Assembly: GCA_011033025.1 (NCBI GenBank) | Contig: WFMF01000010.1 | Location: forward strand, 372,001 to 436,000 | Source: Beroe forskalii | Taxonomy: Eukaryota > Ctenophora > Nuda > Beroida > Beroidae | Length of the DNA stretch: 64,000 nt | Direction: 5' to 3' | Shown: positions 1-64,000 of the stretch, one piece after another | Layout: every line of letters starts with the position of its first letter | How positions within the stretch are numbered: position 1 is the first letter of the stretch | Translations under genes and position numbers: made by a program | Notes under the pieces: generated by a model | Seen by the model: the letters and a program-made list of their open reading frames with translations, nothing else | Told to the model about the DNA's origin: nothing | Databases searched by the model: none

Positions 1-55
1 CCTACAGCTACATCCTGTCATCCTACCCGCCTTCAAATAAATACATTCGTTACAG

Positions 56-2909
56 GACAAACCGAAGTTTCCTGTTTTGTCGTCAGAGGAGCGGGCCTAT
101 CGAACAAGTCTTGATGCTGTCACCAACATCATCACGTGCAGGATGAAACAACGCGGACCCACCTCTTTGGATCCGAGTTAGTCCTGCCTACGGGGTCCTT
201 TCCGAAACAGTCTGAAGTCAAAAAACAGACTTAGATCAAAATATTCCCGTCCTAATTTGTAATTTACTTTTTATTTAATTAGGTTTTCTGACTTCACTTC
301 CACTTCGTAATGGATCCCCAGGTCCATATTACACTCTGTGTCCTGAAAGCATTATTTATCCTAACATGAACTTATAAACCAACAGTAAACACTGGTTCAT
401 TCTGGCACCACTCTAGCTGTAAATCAGTTCACCTTGAAATCAGTTCATGCTGCTACCAGTTCACCTTGAAATCAGTTCATGCTGCTACCAGTTCACCTTG
501 AAATCAGTTCATACTGCTACCAGTTCACCTTGAAATCAGTTCATGCTACCAGTTCACCTTGAAATCAGTTCATACTGCTACCAGTTCACCTTGAAATCAG
601 TTCATACTGCTACCAGTTCACCTTGAAATCAGTTCATGCTGCTACCAGTTCACCTTGAAATCAGTTCATGCTGCTACCAGTTCACCTTGAAATCAGTTCA
701 TGCTGCTACCAGTTCACCTTGAAATCAGTTCATGCTGCTACCAGTTCACCTTGAAATCAGTTCATACTGCTACCAGTTCACCTTGAAATCAGTTCATACT
801 GCTACCAGTTCACCTTGAAATCAGTTCATGCTGCTACCAGTTCACCTTGAAATCAGTTCATGCTGCTACCAGTTCACCCGGTGACATCGGTTCGTCCAGT
901 CACCTGTACATCCTGACACCAGTTTAAACTACCTTACCAAATAAATTGTCATGGAACAATAATTCTGGGGATCGAAATCACCATTTTATCTTGACATCAT
1001 GTCAGCCTGTCGGAGATAGGCCGACCTGGTTTCACGACAGGCTGTCGCCAAAGTTTTCACATTCCCTTTCAGGTCTCAGCGCTAGAATGTCGCAGTTGGA
1101 AGTAACTCCTAGCTTTTACATTCCCTTTCAGGTCTCAGCGCTAGAATGTCGCAGTTGGAAGTAAATCCTAGCTTTCACATTCCCTTTCAGGTCTCAGCGC
1201 TAGAATGTCGCAGCTTGGGGTAACACCTAGCTTTCACATTCCCTTTCAGGTCTCAGCGCTAGAATGTCGCAGTTGAGAGTAACTGTAGCTTTTACATTCC
1301 CTTTCAGGTCTCAGTGCTAGAATGTCGCAGTTGGAAGTAACTCCTAGCTTTTACAGTCCCTTTCAGGTCTCAGTGCTAGAATGTCGCAGTTGGAAGTAAC
1401 TCCTAGCTTTTACATTCCCTTTCAGGTCTCAGCGCCCGAATGTCGCAGTTGGAAGTAACTGTAGCTTTTACATTTCCTTTCAGGTCTCAGCGCAAGAATG
1501 TCGCAGTTGGGGGTGACACCTAGCTTTTACAGTCCCTTTCAGGTCTCAGCGCTAGAATGTCGCAGTTGGAAGTAACTCCTAGCTTTTACATTCCCTTTCA
1601 GGTCTCAGCGCAAGAATGTCGCAGTTGGAAGTAACTCCTAGCTTTTACATTCCCTTTCAGGTCTAAGCGCTAGAATGTCGCAGTTGAGAGTAACTGTAGC
1701 TTTTACATTCCCTTTCAGGTCTCAGCGCTAGAATGTCGCAGTTGGAAGTAACTGTAACTAGTAACTTTTACAGGTCTCAGCGCAAGAATGTCGCAGTTGG
1801 GGGTGACAGAAGGCTACCAAGGCTCGGGAGCAGCTGCTTTCCAACAGCAACAGCAAAAGATTCCCATGTACCAGGTACATTTTAATTCTAAATTAATAAT
1901 TGATTAATTGATTGATTTTAATTCTAATTGATTTTAATTCTAATTGATTTTAATTCTAATTGATTTTAATTCTAATTGATTTCATTATTTAATTATGATT
2001 TAATCCTAATTGATTTTATCTGGCACTACATGTAAACTATAATACTCATAAAACTATAAAGCTCATGAAACGTTTTCCCTTGTGGACACCACTGTGTGCG
2101 CAGTGTGCACAACGTGCGCAGTGTGCACAACGTGCGCACAGTATACACAACGTGTGCACGGTGTGCGCAGTGTGCACAACGTGCGCACAGTATACACAAC
2201 GTGTGCACGGTGTGCGCAGTGTGCACAACGTGCGCAGTGTGGACATCGTGCGCAGTGTGCACGGTGTGCGCAGTGTGCACTGTAAGCGCATTGTACACAA
2301 CATGCGCAGTGTACACAACGTGCACAGTATGGATTGTTGTATGGATTATTGCATTTAGATTTTATTTTCTGTTTCAAAGCTCTTGTGCAAAGTACTCCGC
2401 CGAGGGTGCTCTACTGTATTTTTACCCTGAATTTCCCTACTTTCATATCCCGCAGGGTAACTATAGCTATACCCTGATTTCTCTACTTTCATATTCCGCA
2501 GGGTAACTATAACTATACCCTGATTTCCCTACTTTCATATTCCGCAGGGTAACTATAACTATACCCTGATTTTCCTACTTTCATATTCCGCAGGGTAACT
2601 ATAACTATACCCTGATTTCCCTACTTTCATATTCCACAGGGTAACTATAACTATACCCTGATTTCCCTACTTTCATATTCCGCAGGGTAACTATAACTAT
2701 ACCCTGATTTCCTACTTTCATATTCCGCAGGGTAACTATAACTATACCCTGATTTCCCTACTTTCATATTCCGCAGGGTAACTATAACTATACCCTGATT
2801 TCCCTACTTTCATATTCCGCAGGGTAACTATAACGGGAACTATGAGATTGCGCAGAACACCAACCTGTACAATGTGGAATTAGGCGAGATTCTTGGCATA
2901 GGTTGGTGA
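56..2909 (+). CDS. C-terminal three exons of an unrecognised Gln-rich protein
   Basis: Three exons join in frame: 56-176 (acceptor TTACAG, donor GTTAGT, ends phase 1), 1774-1874 (two leading bases, ends phase 0) and 2823-2909 (stop TGA at 2907). The first opens DKPKFPVLSSEERAYR and is charged and probably helical. The second holds an Ala/Gln run (GAAAFQQQQQ). The third is Asn/Tyr-rich (GNYNGNYEIAQN) and ends ILGIGW. The phases fit only in this combination, which is the main support. The 5' part lies outside the window. I do not recognise the family. Both introns are filled with minisatellites, and the acceptors of the second and third exons are the last units of arrays. It could in principle be the 3' end of a gene unrelated to the downstream YTHDC2-like gene, which starts about 2.9 kb later on the same strand. 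Confidence 0.6.
420..880 (+). repeat. 32-bp minisatellite in intron
   Basis: About 14 near-identical copies of a unit beginning ACCAGTTCACCTTGAAATC, varying mainly as CATGCTGCT versus CATACTGCT. One copy lacks three bases. It lies in the first intron of the Gln-rich gene. I see no exon copy inside this unit. Confidence 0.9.
1055..1773 (+). repeat. 59-bp minisatellite made of a splice acceptor plus exon start
   Basis: About 13 units. Each contains the pyrimidine-rich intron tail CATTCCCTTTCAG followed by GTCTCAGCGC and AATGTCGCAGTTGG, which are the acceptor and first codons of the real exon at 1774. Only the last copy continues into the open frame of the exon. Confidence 0.85.
1912..1990 (+). 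repeat. 16-bp AT-rich tandem repeat
   Basis: About five copies of TTTTAATTCTAATTGA in the second intron of the Gln-rich gene. Confidence 0.8.
2088..2330 (+). repeat. Alternating purine-pyrimidine repeat (TGTGCGCA type)
   Basis: Degenerate repeats of GTGCGCAGTGTGCACAACGT and close variants over about 240 bp. Most of the tract is a strict purine/pyrimidine alternation rich in CG, TG and CA steps. Long open frames on both strands here follow from the repeat and are not genes. Confidence 0.85.
2420..2822 (+). repeat. 46-bp minisatellite made of a splice acceptor plus exon start
   Basis: About nine units of CTACTTTCATATTCCGCAG followed by GGTAACTATAAC and TATACCCTGATTT. The acceptor and the GGTAACTATAAC codons are those of the final exon at 2823, whose own copy is the last unit. 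Confidence 0.88.
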
Positions 2910-3195: not shown

Positions 3196-3201
3196 AATAA
3201 A
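3196..3201 (+). promoter_or_regulatory. Candidate polyadenylation signal AATAAA
   Basis: AATAAA about 290 bp after the TGA of the Gln-rich gene. A position match only; no transcript evidence. Confidence 0.3.
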
Positions 3202-5763: not shown

Positions 5764-8065
5764 GAGAACAGACAGATATCCAGGACAGCAGCATGGAAGT
5801 GTGGCTGCACGAGAACATGGACGGAGCGATGGAGGCGTGTATAGAGAAGTTCAGCGAGACATCCTTCACCCACATGATGGGGTATGATGTTTTTCATGTT
5901 TACATTTAGAACTTTCTATACTTTATGTTAACTTTATGTATGGTAAATTGAGCGATCCGTATTGGCCCATGTCACGCCATTATCACGCCCCTATCATGCC
6001 AGTATCGCGTATTTGGTCATGATGGGGTAATGGGCATGTAATGACGACGGCGTATTAGTTTACCCACAGGCCTAGTTGACATTGGCCAATCAGCGTAAGA
6101 GTTGACTGCAAACTCAGTCGCTGATTAGTCGATGTCTTGTCGTCTGTCGATTTCAGGATCTTATGGGTAAACTAATAATATGCCGTCGAGTTAGTTTTGG
6201 AATTCGGTCATTTGGCGTATGACTGGTTTGTGTCAGGGGAGAGACGAGAGAGAAATCAAAAATTAAGCGTAAGGCCAATTTTCCAGTTTGGCCAAATGAC
6301 ATAGATGTTTAAACTTTATACTGCTATTTATTGAGAAATCACTCCATTTGCAGGTATGTTCTGCTTTTCACTGAGAAATCTCTCCAATTGCAGGTATATT
6401 GTGAGTGAAGCTGTGGGCGTGGATTACCAACATACCGCCACCTTTATGACAGCCCTCATGGTAAGAGAATTGAAGCCTCACCAACAAAGCTCACCAATTA
6501 AAAACTGTACATTTTGTTCCGTCTCCGTTAGTCTTTTTTGGCATTAAGGACTCAGGAAGGATGGTTGATTGATTCCTACTTTATTACCGGAGACAGAGAT
6601 TTGCAATCAGTCACCCTTAGCTCAGTGGCGCTGGCCGGGATTCGAACTCAGGATCTTTCGATCCTGTGCCCAAATCGATACCACTACACCACTGACCCAT
6701 TGACTGATTTCTTCATTGTCGTAGAGTTGCAATCAGTCCTCTTCTCTTTCTGTGTTTAACTAGTCAGTAGTAAATTTAAAACTAATTAGGTATCATTAAA
6801 GCGCTTTATCGTTATTAATCTCATCACATTAATCAATCTCAAATTACTAAATTATTATAGCATTGAGAGAAGACGACAGTTAGCCTGTAACAAGTTTAGG
6901 TCGCCACTGCACAATCTAAAGTTTGTCAACCTCAATTAATAGCCTTTTGCTTGTCATGCATAATATATCTTCAAATTGGAAGAAAAGCGTTCACTCAGCA
7001 TCTTCCTCAGATTGCAGCAAGTAAAGGCTCACTGGAGTCTGTTGAGAAACTCCTTAATCTGGGGGCTGACCCTAACGTTTCTGATCTGAGGGGACACTCA
7101 ACCTACAAACACGCCGAACCACACCCCAGTGTGAGTACCGACCATAGCACCACATTCAAGCAAATATCACTTACCACGCCCATCACTTACCACACTCATC
7201 ACTTACAACGCTCATCACTTACCACACTCATCACTTACCACACTCATCACTTACCACGCTCATCACTTACCACTCTCATCACTTATCATGCTCATCGCTC
7301 ACCACACTCATCGCTCACCACACTCATCACTTACCACAATCATCACTTACCACACTCATCACTTACCACGCTCATCACTTACAACGCTCATCACTTACCA
7401 CTCTCATCACTTACCACGCTCATCACTTACCACACTCATCACTTACCACACTCATCGCTCACCACACTCATCACTTACAACGCTCATCACTTACCACACT
7501 CATCACTTATCACTCTCATCACTTACCACGCTCATCACTTACCACTCTCATCACTTACCACACTCATCACTTATCACACTCATCACTTACCACACTCATC
7601 ACTTACCACGCTCATCAAACTTCACTTGCACTCTCATCACTTATCATGCTCATCGCTCACTTACCACACTCATCACTTACCACACTCATCACTTACCACT
7701 CTCATCACTTACCACGCTCGTCACTTACCAAACTCATCACTTACCACACTCATCACTTACCACACTCATCACTTGCCACTCTTATCACTTACCACGCTCA
7801 TTACTTACCAATCGCATCACTTACCGCACTATTCACATACAACACTCATCACTTACTACACTCATCACTTACCACACTCATCACTTACCACGCTCATCAC
7901 TTACCACACTCATCACTTACCACGCTCATCACTTACCACGCTCAGGTGACGAAGTTGCTGAAGGAGTTCAATACCAACTTCATCACTAAAAAGTTTGACA
8001 ATACGACAGAAACGCAGCTGATTTCCAACAAGGAGGAGAGGGGTATCCTCGAAACGTATTACAAG
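5764..8065 (+). CDS. YTHDC2: YTHDC2-like exons: region before and within the ankyrin insert
   Basis: Exons 5764-5881, 6394-6460, 7011-7130 and 7946-8065 join at phases 2, 0, 0 and 0. They read [13 protein letters not shown], then [16 protein letters not shown] and [20 protein letters not shown], which is an ankyrin repeat ([21 protein letters not shown]), then [12 protein letters not shown]. The order and spacing match the ankyrin insert that separates the two RecA domains of YTHDC2. The exon at 7946 uses an acceptor that is the last unit of a 16-bp intronic array. Confidence 0.85.
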
Positions 8066-11000
8066 GTGATTAATACTAATTTTAAAAATCGTTTAAATTA
8101 GTTAAAAATTAGTTAATCAAAAATTAGTTAAAAATTCGTATAAATTAGTTAAAATATTCGTGGTCATATGAATTGCCAGCTTTTCTTTGGACCCGAAAAA
8201 CGATTGGCACTCACTATAAAATTGGGCTCACTATGAAATGGGAATCTTGGTAAGCTAATACGCCGTCTATATATTTGTAGCTTACCTTGGCTGATTAATG
8301 TATTTACTAATCTATTCCCAACAGAGGTTCTTGAACCAATTTTGTTGTACTAAATAAAACCCTTTTTTCCGGGCCGAATTTGAAAACATTTTACTCACCC
8401 AGATTTCTCCAAATGTGATCTATTTCATTACGAGTTTTAGGTATGGAACTCTGTCCACGTTCGTGACTTTTTCTCGTTGTAATACTCTTTGTGTCAACAT
8501 TTTAATCAGCAACATTAAATATTAATTATATATTTTCATTTCGGACCATAGACCAGTAATCTCAAGTCATGAAGTATAATCCGTCGTTCGTATCAAGGAT
8601 CGAATGTGGAAGTTGATAAGTTTGCTCCAATGAAGCAATAATGCTCGGCCATCATGGCTTGATTGCCAGAAAGTAGAAATCTACACTATTCTAAACTCAA
8701 GGAAAATGCGCCACCTTTTCAGATCGTCGACAGTACGAAGGCAGATCTGGATCTTATTTTCTACCTGATTTCTCTGATTCTGGAGTGCCAGCAGCCGGAT
8801 GGTTCGGTACTGGTGTTCCTCCCATCCTACGACGACATTATCAGACTCAGGTATAGAAGAAACTTTACAAGTTTACTACACTATTCTATAAATAAAATTT
8901 GAAAAAGTCAGATTTGGCGTTCAAAAATGAGCAGTTGATTCATTCACAAAGCAGATTCATTCACAAAGCAGATTCTGTGTGTCAATTAGAAAGCGTGTTC
9001 ATGCAGATGCACGATACGCTGACTAAATAACTTTCCTAAACTCGTCTTGACACCTTGCGTTGAATATTATTTTTTGAGTTTTTACTTCTATTCCAACAGC
9101 CGTACGGCCATTGACAGGAATCGAAGGACTCAAGTGTTATCAAGCCACTAAGCCAGTGACGGTTAAGGAAGTGTAATCACTCGCACGAGAATTCGCTGCA
9201 ATGGACAGCTCCTTATTTTACCCTCCCGCACAGTTTCCTATACCGTGTCAGGTGCATAGGCTTGAGATACCTAGGTATCTTTCACCATTAGCTGAGTGGG
9301 AATGGCAAGGAATCGAACCCGGAATCTTTCGATCACGAGCCAGACTTGAAACCATTACACCAACTGCTTTCTTTGTCAGGTCGATGCTGATGCATGACCA
9401 GAACATGCTACATAAGATACACATCTTCATGCTCCACTCCTCAATGCAGCCGTTCGAACAGAGGAAGGTTTTCAGGAAGTCTCCTTATGGCATCCGAAAG
9501 GTGATCCTGTCAACCTCCAGATGTCTATCTCACTGTCGTTAAACTTCAAATGTGTGGAAGATTATAGTCCGAGTTTCTAGCTCAATTATTGCTGAAAATC
9601 TAATTTTAGGTCGGTACTCAAATAATAGGCTTGGATGCATTTTTGGGAGGGCAAACCATTTGTTTACATTCTAAAAATAGCTCAAATATCTGGCAAGATT
9701 CCAAATGCCCATATTATCAGGTGATTCCTGTCAACCAGTATTGCTGAGACAGCGCTGACAGTTGATGATGTTATGTTTGTAATCGACTCAGGGAGGATTG
9801 AGGAAAGAATATATGATCCTAAAGCAGATTTGAAATCAGGTCTTTAGATATTATGGAAGAATTTTTTGATATATAACTCCAAGATTACTATAATTCTACT
9901 CTGCTTTGGAACATTTTTGATTATTTTTGGTGGTAATTTTGTGGTAATTTTTAATTCCTTTTCGTGTTTTAAACCTTTCGATAATTATTTCAATTTCCAA
10001 ATTTTCAGAATCCAGCTGATCCATTCCATGTAAATGCATGATTAAAACTGGATATGCACGTACAGACTCTTGTCTCAGATTTGAACAAGTTTGTCACGAA
10101 GTGGATTTCCAAGAAAAGTGCCAACTACAGGCGGAGTCGTGCTGGAAGAGTCAACCCAGGAGTTTGCTATCATTTGTTCAGCAACGAAAGGTTCAAGACT
10201 TAGGGTGTAGCTCGTTAATGATTCTAACCTAATTTTAAAGGTACTCTGTAGTGGGTTTTACTTAGCAGGGGTCGAAATAAGTAAAAATAATAAGTTAGAT
10301 ACCATGAATTTTGACGACATGCCAAGTGACCTAAGTTGTTTCACAGTTTCGAAAACCACTCGTTTGTAGCAGTTCCGCAACAAAACTTATCCAAATATAT
10401 AGCAGTTGTAGTATAATGTAACTAAATAACTCTACAGGTTCAAGACGTTGGAGGAGGTGTCTTCCCCCGAGTTATTCCGTGTATCTCTCTCCGAGATTGC
10501 TCTCAACACCAAGGTTATTGAGTAGTAGTAACCATGGTTACTGATATGTACTGAGTAGTAGTAACCAAGGTTACTGATATTAAATTTACTGCTATTATCT
10601 GGGTAGATTTCAATATTCCTCTGATTCCCGCCCTGTTGAGAAGATTTCCATATAGTCTTGTTTCACGCGAACTTGTTTCATGGAACTCAGGATTAGTTTT
10701 CATGACAGTATTTTAAATGATCGACATCATTAAATGATCAGTTCTGAAATTCACTAATTAAACTAACGTAAAACCACCATATCAAGGTGTTGGCACCTCA
10801 CAACATGCCTGTAGCCGAGTTCCTCAGTAAAAGCATTGAGCCGCCTGACATGCCTGCCCTCAAGAAGGTTTGTGGTCTTCTTCTTCTTTTGAATTTGCCT
10901 TAATGGCAACTCGCCCAGAACATCTTAATTAAAACGCACATTATTAGGCAACACCAAATTAAGCATTTTTCATAGCTATTTAGCTTATTATTTATCATAT

Positions 11001-14000
11001 CAATTTTGACGTTACACCAAATTAAGCATTTTTTGCGGCCTTCTTCTTCTTTTCTGCTTACTTAATTTCATGTACTAAGGTAGTCACAGCATCAGTGCTG
11101 TGTCTCTGTCGCCGGGTCCCCAGAGGCAAACTCCTGTTAGCTCAACCCCAGAGACTCCCTGTATATAACAATAATCATACTTACTTATCATAGAACTGCA
11201 ACTAGACACGGGAGTCTAATGTCAGTTGCTACCTGGAGCGATGCAAACTCGGAGAGTAGACAGGAACCAACGCTCAGGCCAAACCCATTTGTTCTGTTTT
11301 CCCCTTCAGATAAATCCTGTGTGGGATGTCAGAACTTTCCAAATTAACCTTAGACGGTCACTTGTGGTATTAAAAGTTTGCGCAATGACCACTAGCTCAA
11401 TGCATCTTATTAAACGCCCTCTAAATGCAATAAAGATAATGCGCAACATAAATCCGCCGATTACGTCATCTTTTGAAGCGCTCGGCATGTGTTTGGTGAC
11501 GTCATACGGCCGGCGGATTGCTTATATACGCGAAGTACCCTCTTGCCCCTCTCATATCACATTGCTGTCAGGCTATCGCCGAGCTGACTCGTCAAGAAGC
11601 CCTGACTCCTTGGGAGGAGCTGACGACAGTGGGGAAGCACCTGGCGGAGCTACCCATCGACGCTCATCTGGGCAAGGTGGGTAGGCAGCCTTCTATCCCT
11701 CACCCTCACCATTCCATCCCTCACCCCTCACCCTTCCATCCCTCATCCTCACCTTCCATCCCTCACACTTCCATCCCTCATCCTCACCTTCCATCCCTCA
11801 TCCCCACCTTCCATCCCTCATCCTCACCTTCCATCCCTATCCTCACCCTTCCATCCCTCATCCCTCACCTTCCATCCCTCACACTTCCATCCCTCACCCT
11901 TCCATCCCTCGCCCTTCCATCCATCATCCTCACTCTTCCATCCCTCATCCTCACCTTCCATCCCTATCCTCACCCTTCCATCCCTATCCTCACCCTTCCA
12001 TCCCTCATCCCTCACCCTCCCATCCTGTTAATTCCTGTTTAATTTCTGTTAATTCCTGTTTAATTCCATGATTTTCGAAAGTTCCTGGTATTTTAAAATC
12101 TTCTCGTATTATCTAACGTTTTCAACTTCCTGCTGTCTAGGTGGTGCTCTACTCCGTCATTCTGAAGTGCCTGGATCCCGTGCTGACCATCGTGTGCTCC
12201 CTCGCCTACACCGACCCTTTCACCCAGCCCTCCGAGCAGCATGTCAAAGTGTCCGGTAAGAAAATGTCAAAGTGTCCGGTAAAAACATGTCAAATTTTCC
12301 GGTAAAACATGTCAAAGTGTCCGGTAAAAACGTGTCAAAGTGTCCGACGCAATGATGTCCGGTAAAACATGTTTTTTGTACATCGAGCAAACGCGCCCCC
12401 AAAGTGTCCGTTAAAACATGTCAAAGTGTCCGGTAAAAACCTGTCAAAGTGTCCGGTAAAAACCTGTCAAAGTGTCCGGTAAAAACCTGTCAAAGTGTCC
12501 GGTAAAAACATGTCAAAGTGTCCGGCAAAAGCACAACGCGCACGAAAAAGGCGGGACATCACGGTTAGATTATTCTCTTCGAAGAGAATTCAATCGCAAT
12601 AGATCAATCTAAAACTGTGCCAAATGATTTGTTGTCAACTTCTACGGTTTTTGCTGCAAAAGGGGGGTGCCGACTTATGACCAACCCTGTATTATCTCAA
12701 ATTTTGTACTTTCGACGTTTTGAAATCATGCCTTCAAATCATGCTTTGGGTCAGTTTATTTCTAATATATCTAATTCTTTACCTTATCCTCAGCCTCCAA
12801 GCAAGACGGAGGTTTTCTCTCAGTTCACAGAGTGATCACCTGAGTTCACTCAAAGCTTTTCTTGGTACGTGATTTTCAGTATTCAATCATTCATCAAATT
12901 TTGTCGGGATAGCTTGAAGCCTCCAGCTATGTAAATTATATAAGGCACCACAGTATCCCTTTTTTCATCCTCACAATTTTCTATCACGTTTTTTTATTCG
13001 ATAATCAATCCTCCAATTTGATGGACCAAATATTTTTTCACGTCCCTTACACAGAACAATTATCTTCAATCGTGACGTGTCCTTTTCTGGCAGGGTGGCA
13101 GAAAGCCCGGGCTAATGGCTGGGAACATCAGTTCTGTGAGAAGAATTTCCTGTCTCTAGCTAAGTTGGAGATGATAGAGGGTCTGAGAGCCCAAATCATA
13201 GCACAGCTACGCTCCATGGGATTCATCCGTCAGAAGGGGGGTGTGGACATCAGGAACCTCAACGATAACAGTGATAAGTGGTGAGTTGCCTTAGCGATAA
13301 CAGTTATAAATGGTGAGTTGCCTTAGCGATTACCTATTCTAAGTGATATTCTAAGTACTCTCATGGTTCTAAAATATATTCTAAGTGAATTACACAAAAC
13401 TCAGGTACATCGTGAAAGCGTGTCTGGTTGGAGGTCTCTACCCCCGGTCTATATACTTATATACACCTCAGGTACATCGTGAAAGCGTGTCTGGTTGGAG
13501 GTCTGTACCCCCGGTCTATATACTTACATACACCTCAGGTACATCGTTAAAGCGTGTCTGGTGGGTGGTCTCTACCCCCGGTCTATATACTTATATACAC
13601 CTCAGGTACATCGTTAAAGCGTGTCTGGTGGGTGGTCTCTACCCCCGGTCTATATACTCATATACACCTCAGGTACATCGTAAAAGCGTGTCTGGTGGGT
13701 GGTCTCTACCCCCGGTCTATATACTTATATACACCTCAGGTACATCGTGAAAGCGTGTCTGGTTGGAGGTCTGTACCCCCAGTCTATATACTTATATACA
13801 CCTCAGGTACATCGTGAAAGCGTGTCTGGTTGGTGGTCTGTACCCCCGGTCTATATACTTATATACACCTCAGGTACATCGTGAAAGCGTGTCTGGTTGG
13901 TGGTCTGTACCCCCAGTCTATATACTTATATACACCTCAGGTACATCGTGAAAGCGTGTCTGGTTGGTGGTCTGTACCCCCGGTCTATATACTTATATAC

Positions 14001-25545: not shown

Positions 25546-25549
25546 TACG

Positions 25550-35310: not shown

Positions 35311-35319
35311 CCACTAAAA

Positions 35320-38502: not shown

Positions 38503-39240
38503 AACGCTGCTCAATTAGAACACTGCTCAATTAGAACACTGCTCAATAAGAGCACTGCTCAATCAGAGCACTGCTCAATTAGATCACTGCTCAATAAGTG
38601 CACTGCTCAATTAGGACACTGCTCAATTAGAACACTGCTCAATCAGAACACTGCTCAATAAGAGCACTGCTCAATTAGAACACTGCTCCATCAGAACACT
38701 GCTCAAGTGCTAAATTAGAACACTGCTCAATTAGAACACTGCTCAATTAGGACACTGCTCAATTAGAACACTGCTCAATTAGAACACTGCTCAATTAGAA
38801 CACTGCTCAATTAGAACACTGCTCAATCAGAACACTGCTCAATTAGAACACTGCTCAATTAGAACACTGCTCAATTAGAACACTGCTCAATTCGAACATT
38901 GCTCAATTAGAACACTGATCAATAAGAGCACTGCTCAATTAGAACACTAATCAATCAGAACACTGCTCAATTAGCAAACCGTTAAATTAGAACACTGTTA
39001 GATTAGAACACTGCTCAATCAGAACACTTCTCAATTAGAACATTGTTAAATTAGAACAGTGTTAAATTAGAACACTGCTCAGTTAGATCACTGCTCAATT
39101 GGCACACTTTTCAACCAGAACAACACTCAGTTAGAACACTGCTCAATTAGAACACTGTTCAATTAGAACAATGCTCAATTAGAACATTGCTCAATTAGAA
39201 CACTGATCAATTAGAACAGTGCTCAAGTGCCCAATTTAAA
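38486..39240 (+). repeat. 16-bp array derived from the GPCR stop codon region
   Basis: The coding end CTCAATCAGAACACTGCCAA with stop TAG runs straight into about 45 units of AACACTGCTCAATTAG. The unit is the last five or so codons plus the stop. Variants include AATCAGAACACT and AATAAGAGCACT. It would form most of the 3' untranslated region. Confidence 0.9.
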
Positions 39241-40869: not shown

Positions 40870-41948
40870 TTAACATTGTTTTGTGGTAAGTCTCACAAAA
40901 CGAAACAGAGCCATGGAGCTGGTGTTGACGAATCCTCGAGCTCCTACTTCTACAGTGAAGAGGTTTGTGTTCCAACCTTTTTCTTTGGACCTTCTGACTA
41001 GATCTTCGTATTTTGTTGACTTCTTTATTTTCCAGTCTGCGATGTTATCCTCGAAGGGGGAGGTAAGTTCCACAAACAGGCAAGATTTCCTATCTAGGCT
41101 GTATATGCAGATGTCAGGGCGAAGTGGACTGCATGCAATCTCTGGTGGTATTTGATATTGCTCGTTTCTCTTATCACAGAGGAACTTCCAATCTTGAGCA
41201 TCCCCCCACCATTGACCATTTCTCTGAGGAAGTTTCTTCTTTCTTGGTATGGGCTTACCAGCTGCCACAAATGAATCGTTGAGGCTTGGGATCTTCTTCG
41301 TTCCTTCTTCGTTTCTTCTTTCTTCTTTTCTCTTCTTACTAGTCTTTAGCCATTTGAGAATGGATCCGAGTAAGCTGTCGTGTCTCCAGGAAATACGCCC
41401 TTGCTGTAGTGCTACCTTACAGCTACAGAGTATGTGGACTTGGGAGCAGTATTTCCATCCACAGAGATGACACCTAGCTTCTGCAGTCTTTTTCCATCTC
41501 CTCAAGTTCATTGGGTCAGGGAGGGTCCCCTGGATCGAGTTCAGCAGGAAGGAGAGCATGGACGATGAAAAGCTGTAGAGGAGTTCTTTCCACTTCAGAT
41601 CCAGGTTGATGAGTTCATCCCATTCTGTCCATTTGCTCTGGGATGCTAGTTGGAGGATCTTTCCGATTTTCTCATCATTGGTGAGGTCTTTGGCTTTTGA
41701 TTGATCTTCTTCTCTTTATCAAGGCCTCTCCTATCTCCTTTCATCCGCACGTTGACCATGAACTTCTTTTCGAAGTCTATCTCTTCAACTGCAGCTTTGA
41801 GCTTCTTGCTGGGGTTCCATCCATCTTGATCCATGTGATCATCTCTTTTCCTTTTTGCTGTTCTTCTAACGAGGGGGTCTCGTGACGTAGCCGTTGTAAG
41901 CTGGGAGTTCAGGCAGTTACTGAGAAACATACAATATGATGGTATCAA
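40870..41948 (-). pseudogene. Retroelement remnant: zinc-knuckle plus PD-(D/E)xK-like C-terminal region
   Basis: The - strand frame at 40870-41559 reads LLNSIQGTLPDPMNLRRW, CHLCGWKYCSQVHILCSC (Cx2C...HxxxxC knuckle), GRISWRHDSLL, then RPDICIYS and FVELTSPFEDNI with KKSTKYEDL. The PD...ELT...K array resembles the nuclease-like domain at the C-terminus of certain animal retroelement polyproteins. The frame extends upstream through SQSKWTEWDELINLDLKW until about 41690, where it shifts relative to a Lys-rich frame at 41646-41948. No reverse transcriptase motifs are visible, so this is a truncated, frameshifted copy. Confidence 0.6.
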
Positions 41949-43163: not shown

Positions 43164-43189
43164 TCAGAAGTGTCACCAACCAAGATCTC

Positions 43190-51575: not shown

Positions 51576-51739
51576 AGTGACACATCGGTATGTGAGACAT
51601 TAATTCTAAAAAGTGGTGTCAACGACACGTAGGATCGCTGACGAAGTGACGTAGCGGAATTTAGGCTGACTTAAAGTGGTGTCAACGAAACCTTTATAAG
51701 TGGCTGCACAGTGCAATAGTCTCACTTCTGTTTGGTGTC

Positions 51740-52431: not shown

Positions 52432-55400
52432 GAGGATCAGCTTTACGAGACAGTGTGCGAGGCTGAAGGAAACTCTGTGATAGTTGTAGGGCAGGCAGGG
52501 AAACCTCTGACTATCTGCGAGCTTCAGGTCTTCGGTTATCGTGAGTAGCGATCCAGGGTATTATTAAAGCCTTTCGTTTGACATCAGCCCAATACTTGGA
52601 TAAGAGATACTTACTGAATAATGTGTTTTCATCTACAGAAGTTATCCCTGCTGAAATAGTTAGCATTATTCAACGATTTCTCCCAAATTCACCCCCCCCC
52701 CCTTCTGCAGCCCAGGAATGTGCCGCTGACCATAACCTCGTCTTTCCCACCCATCTTTGACCCCCTCTCTCTTCAGCCCAGGAATGTACCGCTGACCACT
52801 ACCTCGTCTTTCCCACCCGTCTTTGACCCCCCTCTCTCTCTTCAGCCCAGGAATGTACCGCTGACCACTACCTCGTCTTTCCCACCTGCCTTTCACCCCC
52901 TCTCTCACTTCAGCCCAGGAATGTACCGCTGACCACTACCTCGTCTTTCCCACCCGTCTTTCACCCCCCCTCTCTCACTTCAGCCCAGGAATGTGCCGCT
53001 GACCACTACCTCGTCTTTCCCACCCGTCTCTGTGCCCCCTGTAGTGCGGGGTATGTCAGTCAGGTGTACTCGTGTAGTGAAGGGATAGACTGCAATACTG
53101 ACACTGGCTACTCCTCTCACATCTACAAGTGCAGTACCACCGCTGATATTGAGTGGGGTGAGTACTGAGTAGCTTTGCGAACATTGTCTTCTATTTCGTT
53201 ATTACGAACATATTGACGAAAACCGTCCGGCACCGGTTTACTCGGTTATATTATGTTTGTCTGACACCAGTTTACTTAAGTACTTAGTACTTAAGTACTA
53301 AGACATATTATAAGACATACATAGTCTAAGTACTTAAGTACTTAGACATATTATTCTGGTTGACTGACACCAGTTTACTCAGAAATAATCTGTATGTCTG
53401 ACACCATTAAATGTTGCAATATTAATCGACAGATCATAATTTCTGAAGTTTTTGGGGGATTCTGAGCAACTTGCTGACTGCTGTTGTCCTCTAATCTAGT
53501 TACAAAGTCTAATTCGCAGAAAACCGAACAATGCGGTAGGATGTTACACTTGCTGCACACTGCACACGTACAATGATACGGTAACTCTTGAGTTGGTCAT
53601 GGCGTGAAAAGTGATGGTTGCTAGTATTACAACAAGAGGCACATATTTAGGTAGAATACCAGTGCAAGGTAGAAGTCCTCTGACCGCCCCTCGGCAGAAG
53701 TCCATGTTCATAAACAGAGGACCAATGGACCATGGTGCCATATAATAGGCCGAAAAATATGTCAAAAAGGGTGGCCAAAGATCATAAACTACCTCATAGT
53801 AGATGAGGGAAAGATAGTTCCCGAACGAAAATATTCCGAGGTGTAGCTCATGACCTATGATCACCCATGGATCGGTTGTTACCGAAAATTGCCAAAATCG
53901 GCTGACGCCTCGTGTGATAATTTTCGATAAACTGAGTAAGTCTAAGTTAACTTAGGGAGGGCATCACGGCTACCAGGGTGTGGCCAGGGGGAAAGCGACA
54001 CAGGCGGCTGCCTCCCCTTTTGGACAGACAACGTGAAAATTTGGTTAAGATGAGAGCTTGGATCCTAGCAAAATAACATTTTGACAAGTTTTAAATGTAA
54101 CCCGCCACATCCTCTACAAAAATCTAGCTACGCCCCTGACTGATACCGCCCGGAAGATTGCATTATTCTGTCAACCTTTGCATTTCATAAAAACCCATTC
54201 AAGGTCTTTAAAGTTTAATTGCCCTTCCAAGCTGTATTTTCAGTAAGCTTAAAAAGCGGAAAAAGATGTCATTTGATAAAGCACAAAGATGCAAGATTTG
54301 ATTGCTTAACACGTATATCACTGTGTGGCTCGCGCGGCGCGTACACACACCTATGCGGGCTTAGGAAAAGGTTTGAGTGTATCAAATTCAAATATTCAGA
54401 TTGACCTCGACTTTCGGTCGCATTTCGAACTCATAGGAGCGCGGCGTATCGTGCGCAGCTCACTGGCTGTTGATGACTCACAGTGAGCCGCGCACGTAGA
54501 AGTTCGACACGTCCCTGTTATTAAGTTATTATTCGATTAATTAATAATTATTTAATCCGAATGACGTCAAGGATCTTAATTTTTCAAGCGTAATCTGTGT
54601 TTGGTATTATAATTCCTACCGTTTAATCGCAGTTTCTCTATAGTAACGGTTTGAAATAAATCAGGAGCGTGCAGCAGTTCAACTTCACTTAACGTGAGTA
54701 CACACGGCCTCTGGGTGTTAGGCTAGCCCTCAGAGAATCTTAGAATAATGTTATCATCCACCAAAAGACTTACCTTCAAATGAAAACATGCATATTACAT
54801 CAGTTAGATTTTGCATGGCGTTGAATAATGCCACTTGAACTGTTTGGATTTCCCTTGGATTTCCCTTGGATTTCCCTTATCTTACGGGAGAGAGCGTTTC
54901 AACTCTCAGCATTTCAAAATTAAACATTCTCTGTGAATTAAGGCAGTCTTACCGTCTCAATTTGCTGTTATGGTGAAATGGTGAATATTCATTGTTTTTG
55001 ATGCTAGTTGCTTTTGAATTTGCGCTTGCATAGTAAAATCTGAAAAATCCCATCCCTCAAAATATGACCTAGCGAAAGATGTTAATTATCTCTTTTGTCT
55101 TTGATGGAGGCGTAGTCTATCTTCCCTGACGACAAAGAAACGTTCTAAACTTTACAACACCACTCAATGCAATCAAATTCAAGAATTAGGCTTATGTGGT
55201 GCAATTATGATGAGACTTGTCAGTTTCTTCTAAATGATCTCTGGACGTGTGGATCATCGCCAGTCTCATTTGGGTTTCAAGAAGTCTTCCCTCAGGACAA
55301 AGAACCGTGGCTTTTCCTGCTTAAAAAAGCCAATTCTCATAAGAAATGCTAATTCTCATAAAAATGCTAATTGGTTGCATGACGTCATCAGTTCACTATT

Positions 55401-58400: not shown

Positions 58401-61400
58401 CTTTAGAATCGTACCTATTATATTGTGTACTTTTTATTTTTGTACCGTTGCGGCCACCTTGTTGAAAAGGGGCCTTTTAAGTAAACGGTGTCAGACAAAC
58501 AGATTATGTCTCATTAAGCTGGTGTCAGTCAAACAGAATATGTCTGAGCAAACTGGTGTCAGTCAAACAGAATATGTCTGAGTAAACTGGTGTCAGACAA
58601 ACAGAATATGTCAGAGTAAACTGGTGTCAGACAAACAGAATATGTCAGAGTCAACTGGTGCCAAACAAACAGAATATGTCTGAGTAAACTGGTGTCAGTC
58701 ATTCAGACATTCAGACAAACAGATCTTGTCAGAGTAAACTGGTGTCAGTCAAACAGAATATGTCTGAGTAAACTGGTGTCAGTCAAACAGAATATGTCTG
58801 AGTAAACTGGTGTCAGTCATTCAGACATTCAGACAAACAGAATATGTCAGAGTAAACTGGTGTCAGTCAAACAGAATATGTCTGAGTAAACTGGTGTCAG
58901 TAATTCAGACATTCAGACAAACAGATCATGTCAGAGTAAACTGGTGTCAGTCAAACAGAATATGTCTGAGTAAACTGGTGTCAGTCATTCAGACATTCAG
59001 ACAAACAGATCATGTCAGAGTAAACTGGTGTCAGTCAAACAGAATATGTCTGAGTAAACTGGTGTCAGTCATTCAGACATTCAGATCTTGTCAGAGTAAA
59101 CTGGTGTCAGTCAAACAGAATATGTCTGAGTAAACTGGTGTCAGTCAAACAGAATATGTCTGAGTAAACTGGTGTCAGTCATTCAGACATTCAGACAAAC
59201 AGATCATGTCAGAGTAAACTGGTGTCAGTCAAACGGAATATGTCTGAGTAAACTGGTGTCAGTCATTCAGACATTCAGACAAACAGATCATGTCAGAGTA
59301 AACTGTTGCCAAACAAACATATTATGTCTGAGTAAACTGACGTCAGACAAACAGATTATGTCAGAGTAAACTGGTGTCCGACAAACAGATTATGTCTGGG
59401 TAAACTGACGTCAGTTTTGTTGAAAACCCACGGTGGGGTACCCGTAAGGGCTTTGAAACAATATTATATATTGCTGTATAGCGTCACATCTTTGACATGA
59501 ACCCGTTAAAATTAATATCGAGAAGATAAGACACATCTGAGTTGATGATTGTGGTTTGTTAATTTCACATCACTTTCCTCAGAACCAGAAGACGTGTCCC
59601 TCCCGTTTATCAAGGTAGGAGTTGCCGTTACTACCAGTAATCCGGACAGCCAGATAACCGACGAGATATCCATACCTCTCCTTCCCTCCACCTACAACTT
59701 CCCCGCCTCTGGGGCTGTTGATGACGACCTCACTTCGTTCGTCCGGACCAGGAACCCCGCTGAGAGCACTCCAGAGATCACTTTGGATCTCGGGGGCACG
59801 TATTATGTGGCGTTCGTTAAGCTGTACCTTCCTCACTTCACGTCAGGGTTCTTCAGCCCAGACCCGCTCAGCATATGCCTTCAATCCCTGGATGCTTTCA
59901 ATGTTAGTTCTCTTGATAGTAATGAATTAAAGATAGGGAGAGATTTAGAACCTAAAGCACCATAAAAACATGATTTTTGTTGCATTTCGTCTCTTTACGA
60001 ATCCGTAATGAATCAAAGATTCACGAGTCTGAAAAGCTTCTTAAATGCTTATTTTGTAAAATGTAAAAAAGTTCTCTAATCACATTAAGAGGGGTGGGGC
60101 TTAAGTCATCAGTTATTTTCTTACATCAGTTGTTTTCATACATCAGTTATTTTCTTACATCAGTTATTTTCTAACATCGGTAACTTTCTCACAGTCGTGT
60201 CTGAACCAAGAATCGGGTACACGATTGGAATACAAAGCAAGCGACGATTCTGATTGGGAATTGCTAGCTGAAATGGACTTCACAGGACACCATTCTCAAG
60301 CTGAAAGAACGTATTCTTACGATATTTATGGGGAAGTTTCGGCATTTCGCTTTATAAACTGGTATCCTAATGGGGTCATTAGGCTCAGTGAGGTCCTCGT
60401 TGCAACGATAGGTAAACATTTCGCTTTTATTCAGGCTTGAACGATTAGCTTGCTAAAAAGTTTCTCTTTTGTTGACTAACTTTTAGGAGTCTGCATTCAA
60501 AAATAACCTAACACAACAGGAATTCTTGGTGCTTTGCATCGAATAACAAACTAATTCTCAATTAATTCTAAACTGATAAAAACTAATTCTAAACCAATAA
60601 AACCCTTTGGGGTTTTCAAACAGAACGGAACTGCACGGGTAACTACTATCTGGTAAAGCCGTTTAACTACTGTAACCCTTGCTCTGACGGAACGTACAGT
60701 TACGGGGGGCATTCGGAGACTTGTAGCAGCGACAGATCAACAGTCCATCCCTTGCCCTGGAGATGTGAGTTATAACAGCTCTTTTTTTCATTACTTCATG
60801 TTATCCAACCTATAGAGTCCTGTAATTCAGAGTCGATATATTTAATGTAAGAATGTTGTAGAGAGGGTGACAAATCCCTCCAATGTCCTCATCGGTTGTG
60901 TTACTCCACTAATATGGGAAATAATATGTCCATTTTTTTTTATTTCGAAGGTTTTACTTCTATTCCAACAGCTGTAACAGCCAATGACAGGAATCGAAGG
61001 ATTCAAGTAATCAAGCCAGTGACGGTTAAGGAAGTGTAATCCATACTTTCGTCGCCCGAGACTTCGCTGCAATGGGCAGCTCCTCATTTAACCCTCCCGC
61101 ACAGTTTCCTGTACGCTCGGCTGAGTGAACCGTGTGGCTGCTTAGGTGAGAGTTCTCACCCTTAGCACGGAAGGCAAGGCCGGGAATTGAACTACCAACC
61201 TCGCGATTGAAAGTCAGACGCCCTAACCACTGCGCTACCTGGCCACTAAAAACACTTTCTGCGACGCGATGTCATTATATGAGGCCCTCTATTTCCAATC
61301 CTATCCCTCAGTTTCTCACTACAAATCGTTGGAAAACAGTGACATTGTCTCTGCTGCTGCAGTTTACCTAGCCAGTGGAGACTCTGATGGTTATCTGGCT

Positions 61401-63705
61401 GTAGATGACGATATGACCACTTTCACCTACATAGGTTGTATGAATTATGATGAGAGGAGTTACTGATCGTGTCATTGTCAATGTCGTAAATTCGAATACA
61501 ATTTCAACCATTTCAGCAATTTTAATTTAATTTAATTCTAATCCATCACCTATTATAACAGCTCCGTTTTTCCCCGATAGAATCAGGAGACAGTTCTCCA
61601 GCCTCGTTTTCCTACCGGATCTCAAGCGGTGACTATTTCATCCATGAGGTGGTGGTCTTCCTCCTGTTTAGAGAAGACTGGTTCTACTTCCCTGACCACC
61701 CCTGCCTCGTGTCAACCAGTGCTTACCAGGTAAAGTGAAGTGGTTACACCTAGGTCATTTGCTCTTAACTTTATTAAAAGAAGATAATGACTATTAAAAT
61801 TTATATATGCTGACTTATTCCACAATTTGTTACCCCATTTCTCTAAATTATGACTCTGAACGTATAAAAACGCTTTTTAATATCCACCCCTCTTCTTTAG
61901 GCCTGCAAAGACGCTGAATCCGGCACTGAGGTAGTTGTTCTGGACGCTGAGGGCGCTGAAGTAGGGAAGTGTGGAGAGATCACCACTAACTACGGAGAGG
62001 AGATGGGAGACCAGACGTACCGGGTACAGTGTGACATGGAGGGCAGGGAGGTCGTCTTACGGCACAGTGAGGGAGTCATCAGACTCATCGCCTTCTACAT
62101 CACTACTCTGGGTAGGGAAACTCATCGCCTTCTACATCACTACTATAGGTAGAGGGTCAGGACGGAATTTCGACACCCTCGAAAAGTTCGACAACCTAAA
62201 AGTTAGACATTCTCTCTGCTTGTCGAACTTCCGGGCGTCAACAGACTGAATGTTAGGTCCCATCATCGCATGGTAGGACTATGCAAATATACAATATGGT
62301 CGAAATCTTGTAGATGTCGTGAACAATCCTCCAGGTGACCAGCCGACAAATAACAGTTTTACACTATATTGTACTTTACATTCAATAATCAATAGGTTGT
62401 TAAATCCCACAGCCTAGGTTTAAAAGGGTTTTTAACTGATTCTTGGCATTTCAGAGCGGTTTGTTACTGATTCCTGGCATTTCAGAGCGGTTTTTAAACT
62501 GATTCTTGGCATCAGAGCAGTTTTACTGATTCTTGGCATTTCAGAGCGGTTTGTTACTGATTCTTGGCATTTCAGAGCTGTTTTAACTGATTCTTGGCAT
62601 TTCAGAGCGGTTTTCAACTGATTCTTGGCATTTCAGAGCTGTTTTAACTGGTTCTTTGCATTTCAGAGCTGGAGTTTTAACTGATTCCTGGCATTTCAGA
62701 GCTGGAGTTTACTGATTCTTGGCATTTCGGAGCGGTTTGTTACTGATTCCTGGCATTTCAGAGCGGGATTGCAGCGGTAACCACTTCCTGAGGAAGCCCG
62801 GTAACTTGTGCACACCGTGTGAGTCCCGCCTCTACAGCTACGGTGGGAAGTCGGAGGAATGCGTTGCAGATAGGACCCTGATCACACCCACGCCATGGAG
62901 TAATGTATTGTTGGATATTTGTTGTTTTTGACTAATGCTGAATAATAAATTCAGTATCATAAAATTGTTGATTTTAAGAAATTAAAGTATCAAGCTCTTT
63001 AAAAAACGTTTCAAATAGCATGTGCTAATCGTCTTCAGTGAGATAATAAGTTTGTTCGTCCCCACAGGGCCCGGGTCTGTGTCAGGAACCCTCAAATCGC
63101 TGTCTGCCTCCCAGCACCCTGCTGCAGACAACATGGCAACAAGAGCTCTGGATCTAGACCTCTCCACCTTCGCTCTTATCTCTGGTGCAGGGGCGTGGCT
63201 TAGAGTTGACTTGGGAGAGACTGTGCACGTGGGGGATGTTACGGTGTACCTCATGTTCTTCACCGACTGGTTTTACTACCCTGACGACCCTTGTTTGCTC
63301 TCCCTCGATCATTACAAGGTGGGTGGGGAGGCTTCTTCACTGCTAGTGGAATCTCAAACTCAAAGTTACTGCGACAAAGCTGTTAGTAGGGAATGGTATT
63401 TCATCAGCTCTTTTCTTTAATTTCACCGATGTAGAAGGTGTACATAGTAAGATATTGATAGATTACATCCTGTAATATCAACTCCGTATATTCTCTGTAG
63501 GGGTGTAAAGACGAGGAAACAGGGATGGTGATAGAACTCTACGACTCCGATGAGAACCTTGTAAAGACCTGTGGCAGTCTGGTAACTTCCTATGACTTGA
63601 CTCTGGAGGGACAGACCTACACTTTCCAATGTCAAGCTGTGGGGGAGTTTCTCATGCTCAGAAACCCTGTCATACGAGTTCTGGAGATTTCCGTGGTTTC
63701 TTCAG
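52432..63705 (+). CDS. Modular extracellular gene: galactose-binding-like domains alternating with GCC2/GCC3-like Cys modules (partial)
   Basis: Exons 52432-52540, 52984-53157, 56658-56825, 59583-59902, 60195-60411, 60624-60764, 61312-61434, 61581-61729, 61901-62111, 62762-62899, 63068-63318 and 63501-63705 join at consistent phases; modules are bounded by symmetric phase-1 introns. Galactose-binding/fucolectin-like parts show AVDDDLTSF, ITLDLGGTYYVAFVKLYLP, WLRVDLGETVHVGDVTVYL and CELQVFG. Cys modules read NCTGNYYLVKPFNYCNPCSD with GTYSYGGHSETC, and DCSGNHFLRKPGNLCTPCES with LYSYGGKSEEC. This looks like a secreted or cell-surface glycan-binding or adhesion protein. The 5' end (signal peptide and first half of the first domain) and 3' end are missing; the 5.9-kb satellite lies directly upstream. 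Confidence 0.75.
52701..52983 (+). repeat. About 68-bp minisatellite made of a splice acceptor plus exon start
   Basis: Acceptor-exon units start at 52711, 52777, 52846 and 52914, and the real one at 52984 (spacings 66, 69, 68, 70). Each has the pyrimidine tract CCCTCTCTCACTTCAG, then CCCAGGAATGTGCCGCTGAC and CACTACCTCGTCTTTCCCAC. Only the last continues as CTGTGCCCCCTGTAGTGCGG, the Cys-module exon. Confidence 0.92.
53215..53410 (-). repeat. Inverted copies of the ACTGGTGTCAGACAAACAG minisatellite
   Basis: Three to four copies of TGTCTGACACCAGTTTACT, the reverse complement of the unit that fills 58485-59420, mixed with AAGTACTTAAGTACTTAGAC repeats. Located in the intron after the first Cys-module exon. 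Confidence 0.75.
53420..55670. other. Intronic region of the modular gene, no supportable exon
   Basis: Mostly unique AT-rich DNA. A hydrophobic - strand frame of 106 codons at 53544-53864 has no recognisable domain. CRE-like TGACGTCA and GACGTCA motifs occur near 54563 and 55381-55418. The region separates the modular gene's exon at 52984 from the nested gene at 55681. Confidence 0.3.
55681..56481 (+). CDS. Nested gene: small secreted Cys-rich protein with two related modules
   Basis: Exons 55681-55965 and 56185-56481 (phase 0 junction, TAG stop) give 193 residues. The start MKTAFILLVMVPCCLITLSH is a clear signal peptide. The first module reads YCPADYVTIKCKM, CNINDRRCLAVVG and GLWAQSVC; the second QCTGDEVMVTCVAY, SCWIRCKY and CTLSAMC. 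The paired C...C...C...C spacing suggests a duplicated Cys-rich unit faintly like the C-terminal Cys-rich modules of PCSK9-type proteins; this is tentative. The gene lies on the same strand inside the intron 53158-56657 of the modular gene. An AAAA/GTAAGA donor just before the stop leaves open a longer spliced form. Confidence 0.6.
56898..57016. mobile_element. MITE, GGTCATTTGGCC family (best-preserved copy)
   Basis: Arms GGTCATTTGGCCTAACTGGA and TCCAGTTAGGCCAAATGACC are perfect inverse matches, followed inward by a second TTTGGCCTAAC / GTTAGGCCAAA pair. Total about 119 bp; no coding capacity. Confidence 0.8.
57029..57314. mobile_element. Foldback MITE with nested inverted repeats
   Basis: Outer arms CGTGCCTATCGGGTCCACAT and the inverse ATGGACCCGATAGGCGCG. 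GGGATGTATC is matched by GATACATCCC, and CTGATCAGGCAA pairs with TTGCCTGATC further in. Confidence 0.7.
57320..58480. other. Intronic DNA without a visible exon
   Basis: AT-rich unique sequence. Around 57.66-57.79 kb a GC-rich patch (GCCGCGCGCTCAAAAGTCGC) resembles the patch at 23.27-23.36 kb, so both may be copies of a further repeat family. Confidence 0.3.
58485..59420 (+). repeat. 34-bp minisatellite (GTAAACTGGTGTCAGTCAAACAG)
   Basis: About 27 units of AAACAGAATATGTCTGAGTA plus AACTGGTGTCAGTC, some with an extra ATTCAGACATTCAGAC segment, forming a partly regular higher-order pattern. It lies in the intron before exon 59583. Confidence 0.93.
60105..60190 (+). repeat. About 18-bp repeat at a splice acceptor (CATCAGTTATTTTCTTA)
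   Basis: Four to five units of ACATCAGTTATTTTCT run into the tract AACTTTCTCACAG used as the acceptor of exon 60195. Confidence 0.75.
60938..61247 (-). mobile_element. tRNA-derived SINE, full-length copy
   Basis: On the - strand: a tRNA-like head (GGTAGCGCAGTGGTTAGGGC, GGTAGTTCAATTCCC), a body shared with the copy at 9071 (GGAAACTGTGCGGGAGGGTT, GATTACACTTCCTTAACCGT), the tail GTTGGAATAGAAGTAAAACC, and a terminal A-run. The head differs in sequence from that at 9071 while the body and tail match, so two tRNA heads share one body. Confidence 0.82.
62425..62761 (+). repeat. About 29-bp minisatellite made of a splice acceptor plus exon start
   Basis: About eleven units of ACTGATTCTTGGCATTTCAG followed by AGCGGTTTT or AGCTGGAGTTTT. 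The last one, GGCATTTCAG/AGCGGGATTG, is the acceptor and first codons of the Cys-module exon at 62762. Confidence 0.9.
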
Positions 63706-64000
63706 GTTTTATGTTGTTTCTACCAGAGTTCTGGAGATTTCCGTGGTTTCTTCAGGTTTTCTGTTGTTTCTACAGGTTTTTCTGTTGTTTCTTCAGGTTT
63801 TCTGTTGTTCCTATTTTCTGTTGTTCCTATTTTCTCTTGTTTCTACATGTTTTTCTGTTTTTTCTTCTACCGGTTTTCAGGTTTACTGTTGTTTCGTCAG
63901 GTTTCTTTTGTTTCTTCAGGTTTTCTGTTGTTTCTACAGGTTTTCTGTTGTTTCTTCAGGTTTTCTGTTGTTTCTTCAGGTTTTCTGTTGTTTATACAGG
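63700..64000 (+). repeat. About 19-bp repeat (TTTCTTCAGGTTTTCTGTTG) after a splice donor
   Basis: The exon end GTTCTGGAGATTTCCGTGGT with TTCTTCAG/GTTTTATG is duplicated once at 63729. About twelve shorter TTCTTCAGGTTTTCTGTTG units then run to the end of the window. Confidence 0.88.

Follow-up and report, generated by a model that had tools for sequence, protein, structure and literature searches.

Minisatellite arrays spanning exon edges in a 64-kb stretch of the Beroe forskalii genome resemble the mirages of lancelets

In a stretch of 64,000 nucleotides from the ctenophore Beroe forskalii (GenBank assembly GCA_011033025.1, contig WFMF01000010.1, positions 372,001 to 436,000 of the forward strand; hereafter the window), tandem arrays repeatedly lie across the edges of coding exons, with repeat units that include both intronic and coding bases. 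These arrays are over-represented approximately threefold at exon edges in the window, and they are of the same kind as the mirages published from lancelets rather than a new kind, with a coding signature in the repeat copies as the new hint. With a probability of roughly 0.7, they are the products of ordinary tandem duplication and unequal exchange in a genome rich in minisatellites, kept where extra copies are harmless. The window is animal DNA with a mean GC content of 0.446 over 32 segments, and tandem arrays with a Tandem Repeats Finder (TRF) score of at least 60 cover about 40% of its bases.

The gene models comprise 41 exons, found by eye and with limits set by script: 26 from a YTHDC2-like gene on the plus strand at 1.77-24.47 kb (the E exons) and 15 from other genes (the L, M and F exons). 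The 128 TRF rows were reduced to 56 clusters, partly merged by hand; the pieces of 12240-12530, 45696-51576, 63676-63993 and 13400-20060 were joined in this way, the last being extended from 19931 to 20060. A cluster was counted as edge-spanning if at least 3 nt of it lay to either side of a model exon edge, and 10 of the 56 clusters span an exon edge, including six acceptors and four donors. A sequence-only reading of the same DNA had listed at least seven arrays with a unit that spans a splice junction and includes coding bases; all are confirmed, and an eighth was detected at 63676-63993. The four two-copy forms that it named are also real, with those at E4 and E16 present among the TRF clusters and those at E20 and F6, which are not among the TRF rows, recovered by alignment. 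The exon-edge arrays and two-copy forms are as follows.

1055..1800, plus strand: acceptor-type array of exon E1 (1774-1874); unit 59 bp, about 34 nt exonic; 13 junction cores
2423..2834, plus strand: acceptor-type array of exon E2 (2823-2901); unit 46 bp, 12 nt exonic; 9 copies
6321..6397, plus strand: two-copy acceptor duplication of exon E4 (6394-6460); unit 40 bp, about 4 coding nt
12240..12530, plus strand: donor-type array at the end of exon E14 (12141-12255); unit 23 bp, 15 nt exonic; 11 cores
13263..13330, plus strand: donor junction of exon E16 (13094-13280) in two copies; unit 32 bp
13400..20060, plus strand: acceptor-type array of exon E17; unit 67 bp; 69 junction cores; partly noisy
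21248..21334, plus strand: two-copy acceptor duplication of exon E20 (21330-21472); 36 of 40 bases alike
23489..24248, plus strand: donor-type array at the end of exon E25 (23390-23508); unit 28 bp, 20 nt exonic; 25 cores
52708..53039, plus strand: acceptor-type array of exon L2 (52984-53157); unit about 68 bp (spacings 66-70), about 46 nt exonic; 5 copies
62080..62160, plus strand: donor junction of exon F6 (61901-62111) in two copies; alignment of 25 out of 25 exonic bases
62427..62766, plus strand: acceptor-type array of exon F7 (62762-62899); unit about 31 bp, about 5 nt exonic; 10 cores
63676..63993, plus strand: donor-type array of exon F9; 9 cores; absent from the sequence-only list

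The arrays differ considerably in how much coding sequence they carry. In the E17 array, 43 nt of each unit encode 14 residues of the exon, and the smallest coding shares are the approximately 5 bases of F7 and 4 bases of E4. The F9 array begins with a unit of 50 bp (30 nt of exon and 20 nt of intron) and continues with units of about 20 bp. Of the aligned bases in the E20 form, five are coding in the copy attached to the exon. In F6, the junction core of 20 nt recurs within the five mismatches that were allowed.

The excess at exon edges was assessed against a null model in which each array was collapsed to one unit and placed at random, with units wholly inside an exon forbidden and four unit lengths fixed by hand ahead of the statistics. 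Among all 56 clusters, the 10 spanning ones compare with 3.28 expected (p 0.00095); the corresponding values are 10 against 2.55 for the 31 clusters with a score of at least 100 (p 6.5e-5) and 8 against 2.21 for the 25 with a score of at least 200 (p 0.00061). The excess is seen separately in the YTHDC2 region (7 of 26 clusters, 2.51 expected, p 0.0081) and at 52.3-64 kb (3 of 10 clusters, 0.82 expected, p 0.039). When the gene models were instead shifted circularly, with a G protein-coupled receptor (GPCR)-like gene standing outside the model used, 9 spanning clusters compare with 2.93 (P 0.0027); the count is one short of 10, presumably because 63676-63993 was represented by a 20-bp unit that falls entirely within the exon. 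Clusters that span an edge or lie within 20 nt of one number 16 of 56, against 8.15 in circular shifts (P 0.008). Fewer units fall entirely inside a model exon than in circular shifts, with 1 against 6.72 at a score of at least 50 (P 0.0063) and 1 against 3.39 at a score of at least 100 (P 0.11). The over-representation of splice junctions that the sequence-only reading had proposed is thus borne out within the window. All of these statistics come from one window, which was selected because it shows the pattern, and the probabilities are therefore optimistic.

The proposal that the arrays start at splice sites found no support in an examination of the units. Exonic bases, read by hand, make up a fraction of the unit that is 0.59 in E1, 0.26 in E2, 0.10 in E4, 0.65 in E14, 0.56 in E16, 0.66 in E17, 0.71 in E25, 0.68 in L2, 0.16 in F7 and 0.55 in F9. 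This range, from 0.10 to 0.71, is not different from uniform (Kolmogorov-Smirnov p 0.32, n=10), and the position of the junction in the unit therefore gives no sign of arrays starting at splice sites. Junctions with arrays are also not richer in AG|GT, which occurs at 4 of 10 array junctions and at 32 among the 72 remaining exon edges (Fisher p 1.0); in this count AG|GT was assigned by hand to the E17 junction, given the corruption of its exon-attached copy, and the 82 edges include one start codon (M1) and one uncertain donor (M4).

Splice signals are well preserved in the copies. Intact splice dinucleotides are found in the acceptor cores of E1 (13/13), E2 (9/9), E4 (2/2), E17 (69/69), L2 (5/5) and F7 (9/10), and in the donor cores of E14 (9/11), E16 (2/2), E25 (25/25) and F9 (9/9), where cores were selected for resembling the intact junction, and the 69 do not include the corrupt exon-attached copy of E17. 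None of the assigned unit lengths of the 10 arrays is a multiple of 3, so use of the wrong copy would mostly shift the reading frame; some single spacings are multiples of 3, namely 66 and 69 in L2 and 30 and 33 in F7. The typed protein model follows DHX36 across E14/E15 and E16/E17 without extra repeats, although an X was placed at E16/E17 and the first residues of E17 were taken from array copies.

Arrays also occur beside exon edges without crossing them, and at coding edges that are not splice sites.

7166..7944, plus strand: 16-bp array that stops 1 base before the acceptor of exon E6 (exon from 7946); without coding bases
60107..60193, plus strand: 17-bp array that stops 1 base before exon F2 (exon from 60195)
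37420-38502: intronless GPCR-like open frame; weak PDB match, best E 4.8e-6, to chemerin-like receptor 1
37435..37542, plus strand: in-frame coding array in the N-terminus of the GPCR-like gene; unit 27 bp (9 codons), 4 copies
38470..39226, plus strand: 16-bp array on the stop codon of the GPCR-like gene; the first copies are the last codons and the stop

Mirages were reportedly described by Canestro et al. in 2002 (NAR 30:2871). In PMC3087553, tandem repeats spanning exon-intron boundaries, both 5' and 3', are reported from lancelet globin genes, and mirages is the name given to such repeats in Adh3 of two Branchiostoma species, where they have 10-72 bp units and are somatically unstable; regular splicing is seemingly undisturbed, and the mechanism of origin is called unclear. 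Mirages are also reported from PGBD5 and troponin C in PMC3902484. The lancelet repeats (Adh3, the globins BflGb6 and BflGb9, PGBD5 and troponin C) and the arrays of the window are alike in being minisatellite-like, in having a unit that lies across an exon-intron boundary, and in affecting both donors and acceptors. The lancelet units range from the 10-72 bp of Adh3 to 150-160 bp in the globins, and AG/GT signals are kept in many but not all copies, as many are in the window. The combination of a unit across the boundary with coding bases inside it was found in 10 of the 56 clusters, and in two weaker two-copy forms. The statement of the sequence-only reading that it knew of no described system of this kind is not supported, given the match to the lancelet mirages. 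What sets the window apart from them is the presence of 10 TRF clusters on 41 modelled exons, arrays of up to 69 cores, and the coding signature considered below.

Two modes of intron gain share features with the arrays. In PMC3443670, tandem genomic duplication of AGGT segments is described as one route of intron gain, and double-strand break repair with short direct repeats, cited from Daphnia, as another. The former involves the same raw event, a duplication that includes a splice-like AG|GT, and makes a new intron out of an exon, whereas the introns of the window swell by copies of their own edge; the short direct repeats of the latter are paralleled at the ends of three introns in the window. 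The portion of PMC2632668 that is available mentions tandem repeats and contains no boundary arrays. Ordinary minisatellites have similar unit sizes and homogenised, recombined variants, and the window's units differ from them in containing a functional exon edge, so that one copy stays under selection.

Under the favoured explanation, the ordinary processes that generate repeats would have duplicated in tandem a short segment that straddled a coding-exon edge by chance; slippage, unequal crossing-over and gene conversion would then have expanded and reshuffled the copies. In acceptor arrays the copy adjoining the exon would keep the real splice site, in donor arrays the first copy would do so, and the remaining copies would be spliced away as intron. 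Edge duplications would survive because their copies lie on the intron side, and units on a stop codon because their copies fall outside the coding sequence, while units wholly inside an exon would survive only when in frame; the 27-bp unit of the wholly coding array that was found fits this last expectation. Survival at splice junctions requires that the exon-proximal site wins. Exon definition would favour the exon-proximal site on both sides.

Several observations weigh against this explanation, or at least against its completeness. The assembled exon-attached copy of E17 has lost its AG; the coding signature is uneven among arrays, as detailed below; and part of the excess over a null model that already contains the selection filter (10 against 2.55 to 3.28) is left over. 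To account for this remainder, one needs a modest local mutation bias, window choice, or arrays that last longer when a selected copy anchors them to an exon, and the data do not separate the three. One alternative is that a neutral filter acted alone, with random seeds kept only at coding edges or in non-coding DNA and the excess arising from the choice of the window. The features fit such a filter and the finding was selected after the fact, but the null is exceeded 2.8-fold in the YTHDC2 region and 3.7-fold at 52.3-64 kb when these are taken separately, and this account is somewhat doubtful.

A mutational role for the junctions themselves is unlikely. If splice junctions were hotspots at which transcription-linked R-loops or splicing-coupled replication slippage start duplications, the roughly threefold excess of edge-spanning arrays, and the twofold excess of those that span or lie within 20 nt, would follow; against this, donors (4) and acceptors (6) are affected alike, the position of the junction in the unit is not different from uniform, and the evidence comes from a single window chosen for its pattern. 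Arrays are also present on the stop codon and inside the coding region of an intronless gene, and thus occur at a coding edge that is not a splice site; together with the occurrence at six acceptors and four donors, this gives no support to the splicing-specific mechanism put forward by the sequence-only reading. That reading's other suggestion, an endonuclease or transposase acting on AGGT (proto-splice sites) that makes both introns and arrays, is highly improbable. Shared end words of 10-11 nt in three adjacent introns, from E8 to E11, and the GT with which 12 of the 26 YTHDC2-like exons begin could be taken in its favour, but the lack of AG|GT enrichment at array junctions over the other exon edges (4/10 against 32/72) and the position of the E9-E10 repeat, out of register with the junctions, speak against it. 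There is likewise very little to recommend the idea that noisy long reads created or inflated the arrays. Certain irregularities would fit such an artefact, including a gap-rich second copy of 23362-24448 at 25585-26660 (69.5% identical, 217 gaps in 1190 positions), uneven copy spacing in places within the 13.4-20.06 kb array, and apparent frame-breaking indels at E9 and E17; however, regular arrays such as 2423-2834 (97% matches) and 12400-12530 (95%) are without indels, the arrays lie in differing sequence contexts, and there is no clear reason for artefacts to gather at exon edges.

The largest array adds an observation of a different type. Its exon is assembled as follows.

20020..20132, plus strand: exon E17 as assembled; exon-attached repeat copy without AG and with small deletions

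As written, the start of this exon is not a usable acceptor because the exon-attached copy lacks AG. Among the array copies, 62 of the 69 were used in a codon test, with seven that have more than 4 gaps left out, and all six variants present in at least five copies are at third codon positions and synonymous (hypergeometric p 0.0008). Restricting the count to the 45 copies of exact length gives synonymous to nonsynonymous ratios of 7:1 for shared variants and 2:3 for singletons; with the noisier copies included, the ratios are 8:4 and 5:9. The E1 array has 4:2 among shared variants and 3:0 among singletons. When seven arrays are pooled, they have 34 shared variants, of which 17 are synonymous in the true frame; the two wrong frames together give 14 synonymous out of 68 (p 0.0027). 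The wrong-frame counts reuse the same variants and thus serve as a control rather than an independent test. The array of F7 and the two-copy forms at E4, E16, E20 and F6 were omitted from the codon test, and the exon-attached copy was counted among the copies in all tested arrays except E17.

The signature was noticed post hoc and comes mostly from the E17 array, and other results count against extending it. Shared variants are synonymous to nonsynonymous at 4:9 in E25, 0:1 in L2 and 1:1 in F9, E2 and E14 have no shared variants inside whole codons, and without E17 the contrast between frames falls to p 0.097. The combinations of variants in the E17 array are reticulate, which fits conversion or unequal exchange; growth of this array in ordered layers was considered and is not borne out, given the reticulate variants and weak similarity between neighbours (P 0.021). 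On these sequence comparisons, mainly in one array, the pattern suggests that exon and intronic copies may exchange sequence, and the simplest reading would be that shared variants were first part of the functional exon and then spread in the array, or that copies alternate as the exon. Tentatively, the exon edge and the intronic array might form one exchanging family, in which the selected exon-attached copy feeds the array and the array returns conversion tracts to the coding sequence. Among the openly licensed PMC papers listed by the searches, a scope that does not extend to the 2002 mirage paper, no report of a coding signature in mirage-type copies was found.

The E17 array is interrupted by an insertion of 1.6 kb (16638-18250) with several GTTACGTAA words and terminal inverted repeats of 18 nt (16633-16650 and 18238-18255, 89% complementary), which is probably a DNA transposon nested in the array. 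The end of exon E17 (20093-20127) is repeated once in the next intron (20171-20202), about 78 bp away and with 91% identity over 35 aligned positions; the two copies have differing homopolymer lengths.

Three adjacent introns of the YTHDC2-like gene have words of 10-11 nt common to both ends.

9501..9736, plus strand: intron E8-E9; TCCTGTCAACC common to the intron start and the start of the next exon
9825..10088, plus strand: intron E9-E10; CAGATTTGAA before the donor and at the acceptor
10189..10446, plus strand: intron E10-E11; AGGTTCAAGAC at both ends

These are 3 of 37 introns, and with a rate of 0.0008 for mismatched ends the binomial p is 3.9e-6, in a calculation that ignores the three being neighbours. 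Terminal repeats as a general feature of the introns are rejected, as 34 of the 37 have no shared end word of at least 9 nt. The spliced coding sequence of E9 and E10 would hold a near-repeat (GATTTGAAATCA, GATTTGAACAAG) that coincides with a four-residue insertion relative to DHX36. A BLAST search of the three introns at E 1e-4 gave no match elsewhere in the window. From their sequence, the end words look like the possible remains of an older or differently spaced duplication at the junctions.

The YTHDC2-like gene owes its name to the order of its Pfam domains. YTH, HA2_C, Helicase_C and Ank are above the Pfam cut-off in the model and OB_NTP_bind is just below; the YTH match is incomplete, covering the first 56 of 135 profile positions, and the helicase part aligns with DHX36 over 386 residues (E 2.8e-84). 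The N-terminal half of the helicase was not found by eye, and the only further search for it, a Pfam scan of raw translations (stops as X; two of six frames, first 13.4 kb), gave no match. Exons starting with GT are 12 of 26 in this gene (1774-24467) and 0 of 15 in the other genes. Among the latter, Pfam was run on exons F1-F9 at 59.6-64 kb, with an F5_F8_type_C_2 match above the cut-off, and on M1-M4 at 55.7-56.9 kb, with no match; to the eye, L1-L2 at 52.4-53.2 kb resemble parts of F1-F9. The GPCR-like frame matches no Pfam family at E 0.01. Rfam gave nothing at the gathering threshold, ARAGORN detected no tRNA, and scans of viral contigs revealed no relative.

Other repeats and irregularities are present in the window. 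A degraded duplicate of exons E25-E26 with their array occupies 25585-26660 and looks like an unpolished long-read segment or a misassembly. Directly after the degraded E26 copy is a 24-copy, 42-bp array (26672-27682), the unit of which holds the acceptor-like CTCAGGTACG; no exon was found after it by eye. Nearly 6 kb (45696-51576) consist of an irregular 16-bp GC-rich repeat (CCCTCCGGAGAATGGG) with long open frames on both strands. A near-palindromic block, seen by eye at 30960-31560, is a candidate fold-back element, and 20525-20649 and 56898-57023 are inverted copies of one MITE-like repeat (miniature inverted-repeat transposable element) with TTGGCCTAACTGG-type inverted ends, 87% identical over 126 positions. 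On the minus strand at 40873-41715, a 281-codon open frame with a zf-RVT match below the cut-off (E 0.0026) is perhaps the remnant of a LINE-like (long interspersed nuclear element) sequence.

If exon-edge arrays of this kind are common in some genomes, gene annotation would face up to dozens of decoy splice sites per junction, and the arrays would bear on how splicing chooses the exon-proximal site, on the growth of introns and on intron gain. If exon and array do form one exchanging family, the intronic copies would preserve past synonymous states of the exon, and anchoring by the selected copy would account for arrays persisting more at exon edges than in the rest of the introns. Such non-coding minisatellites would then record coding evolution in readable form and also place a mutational load on the exon.

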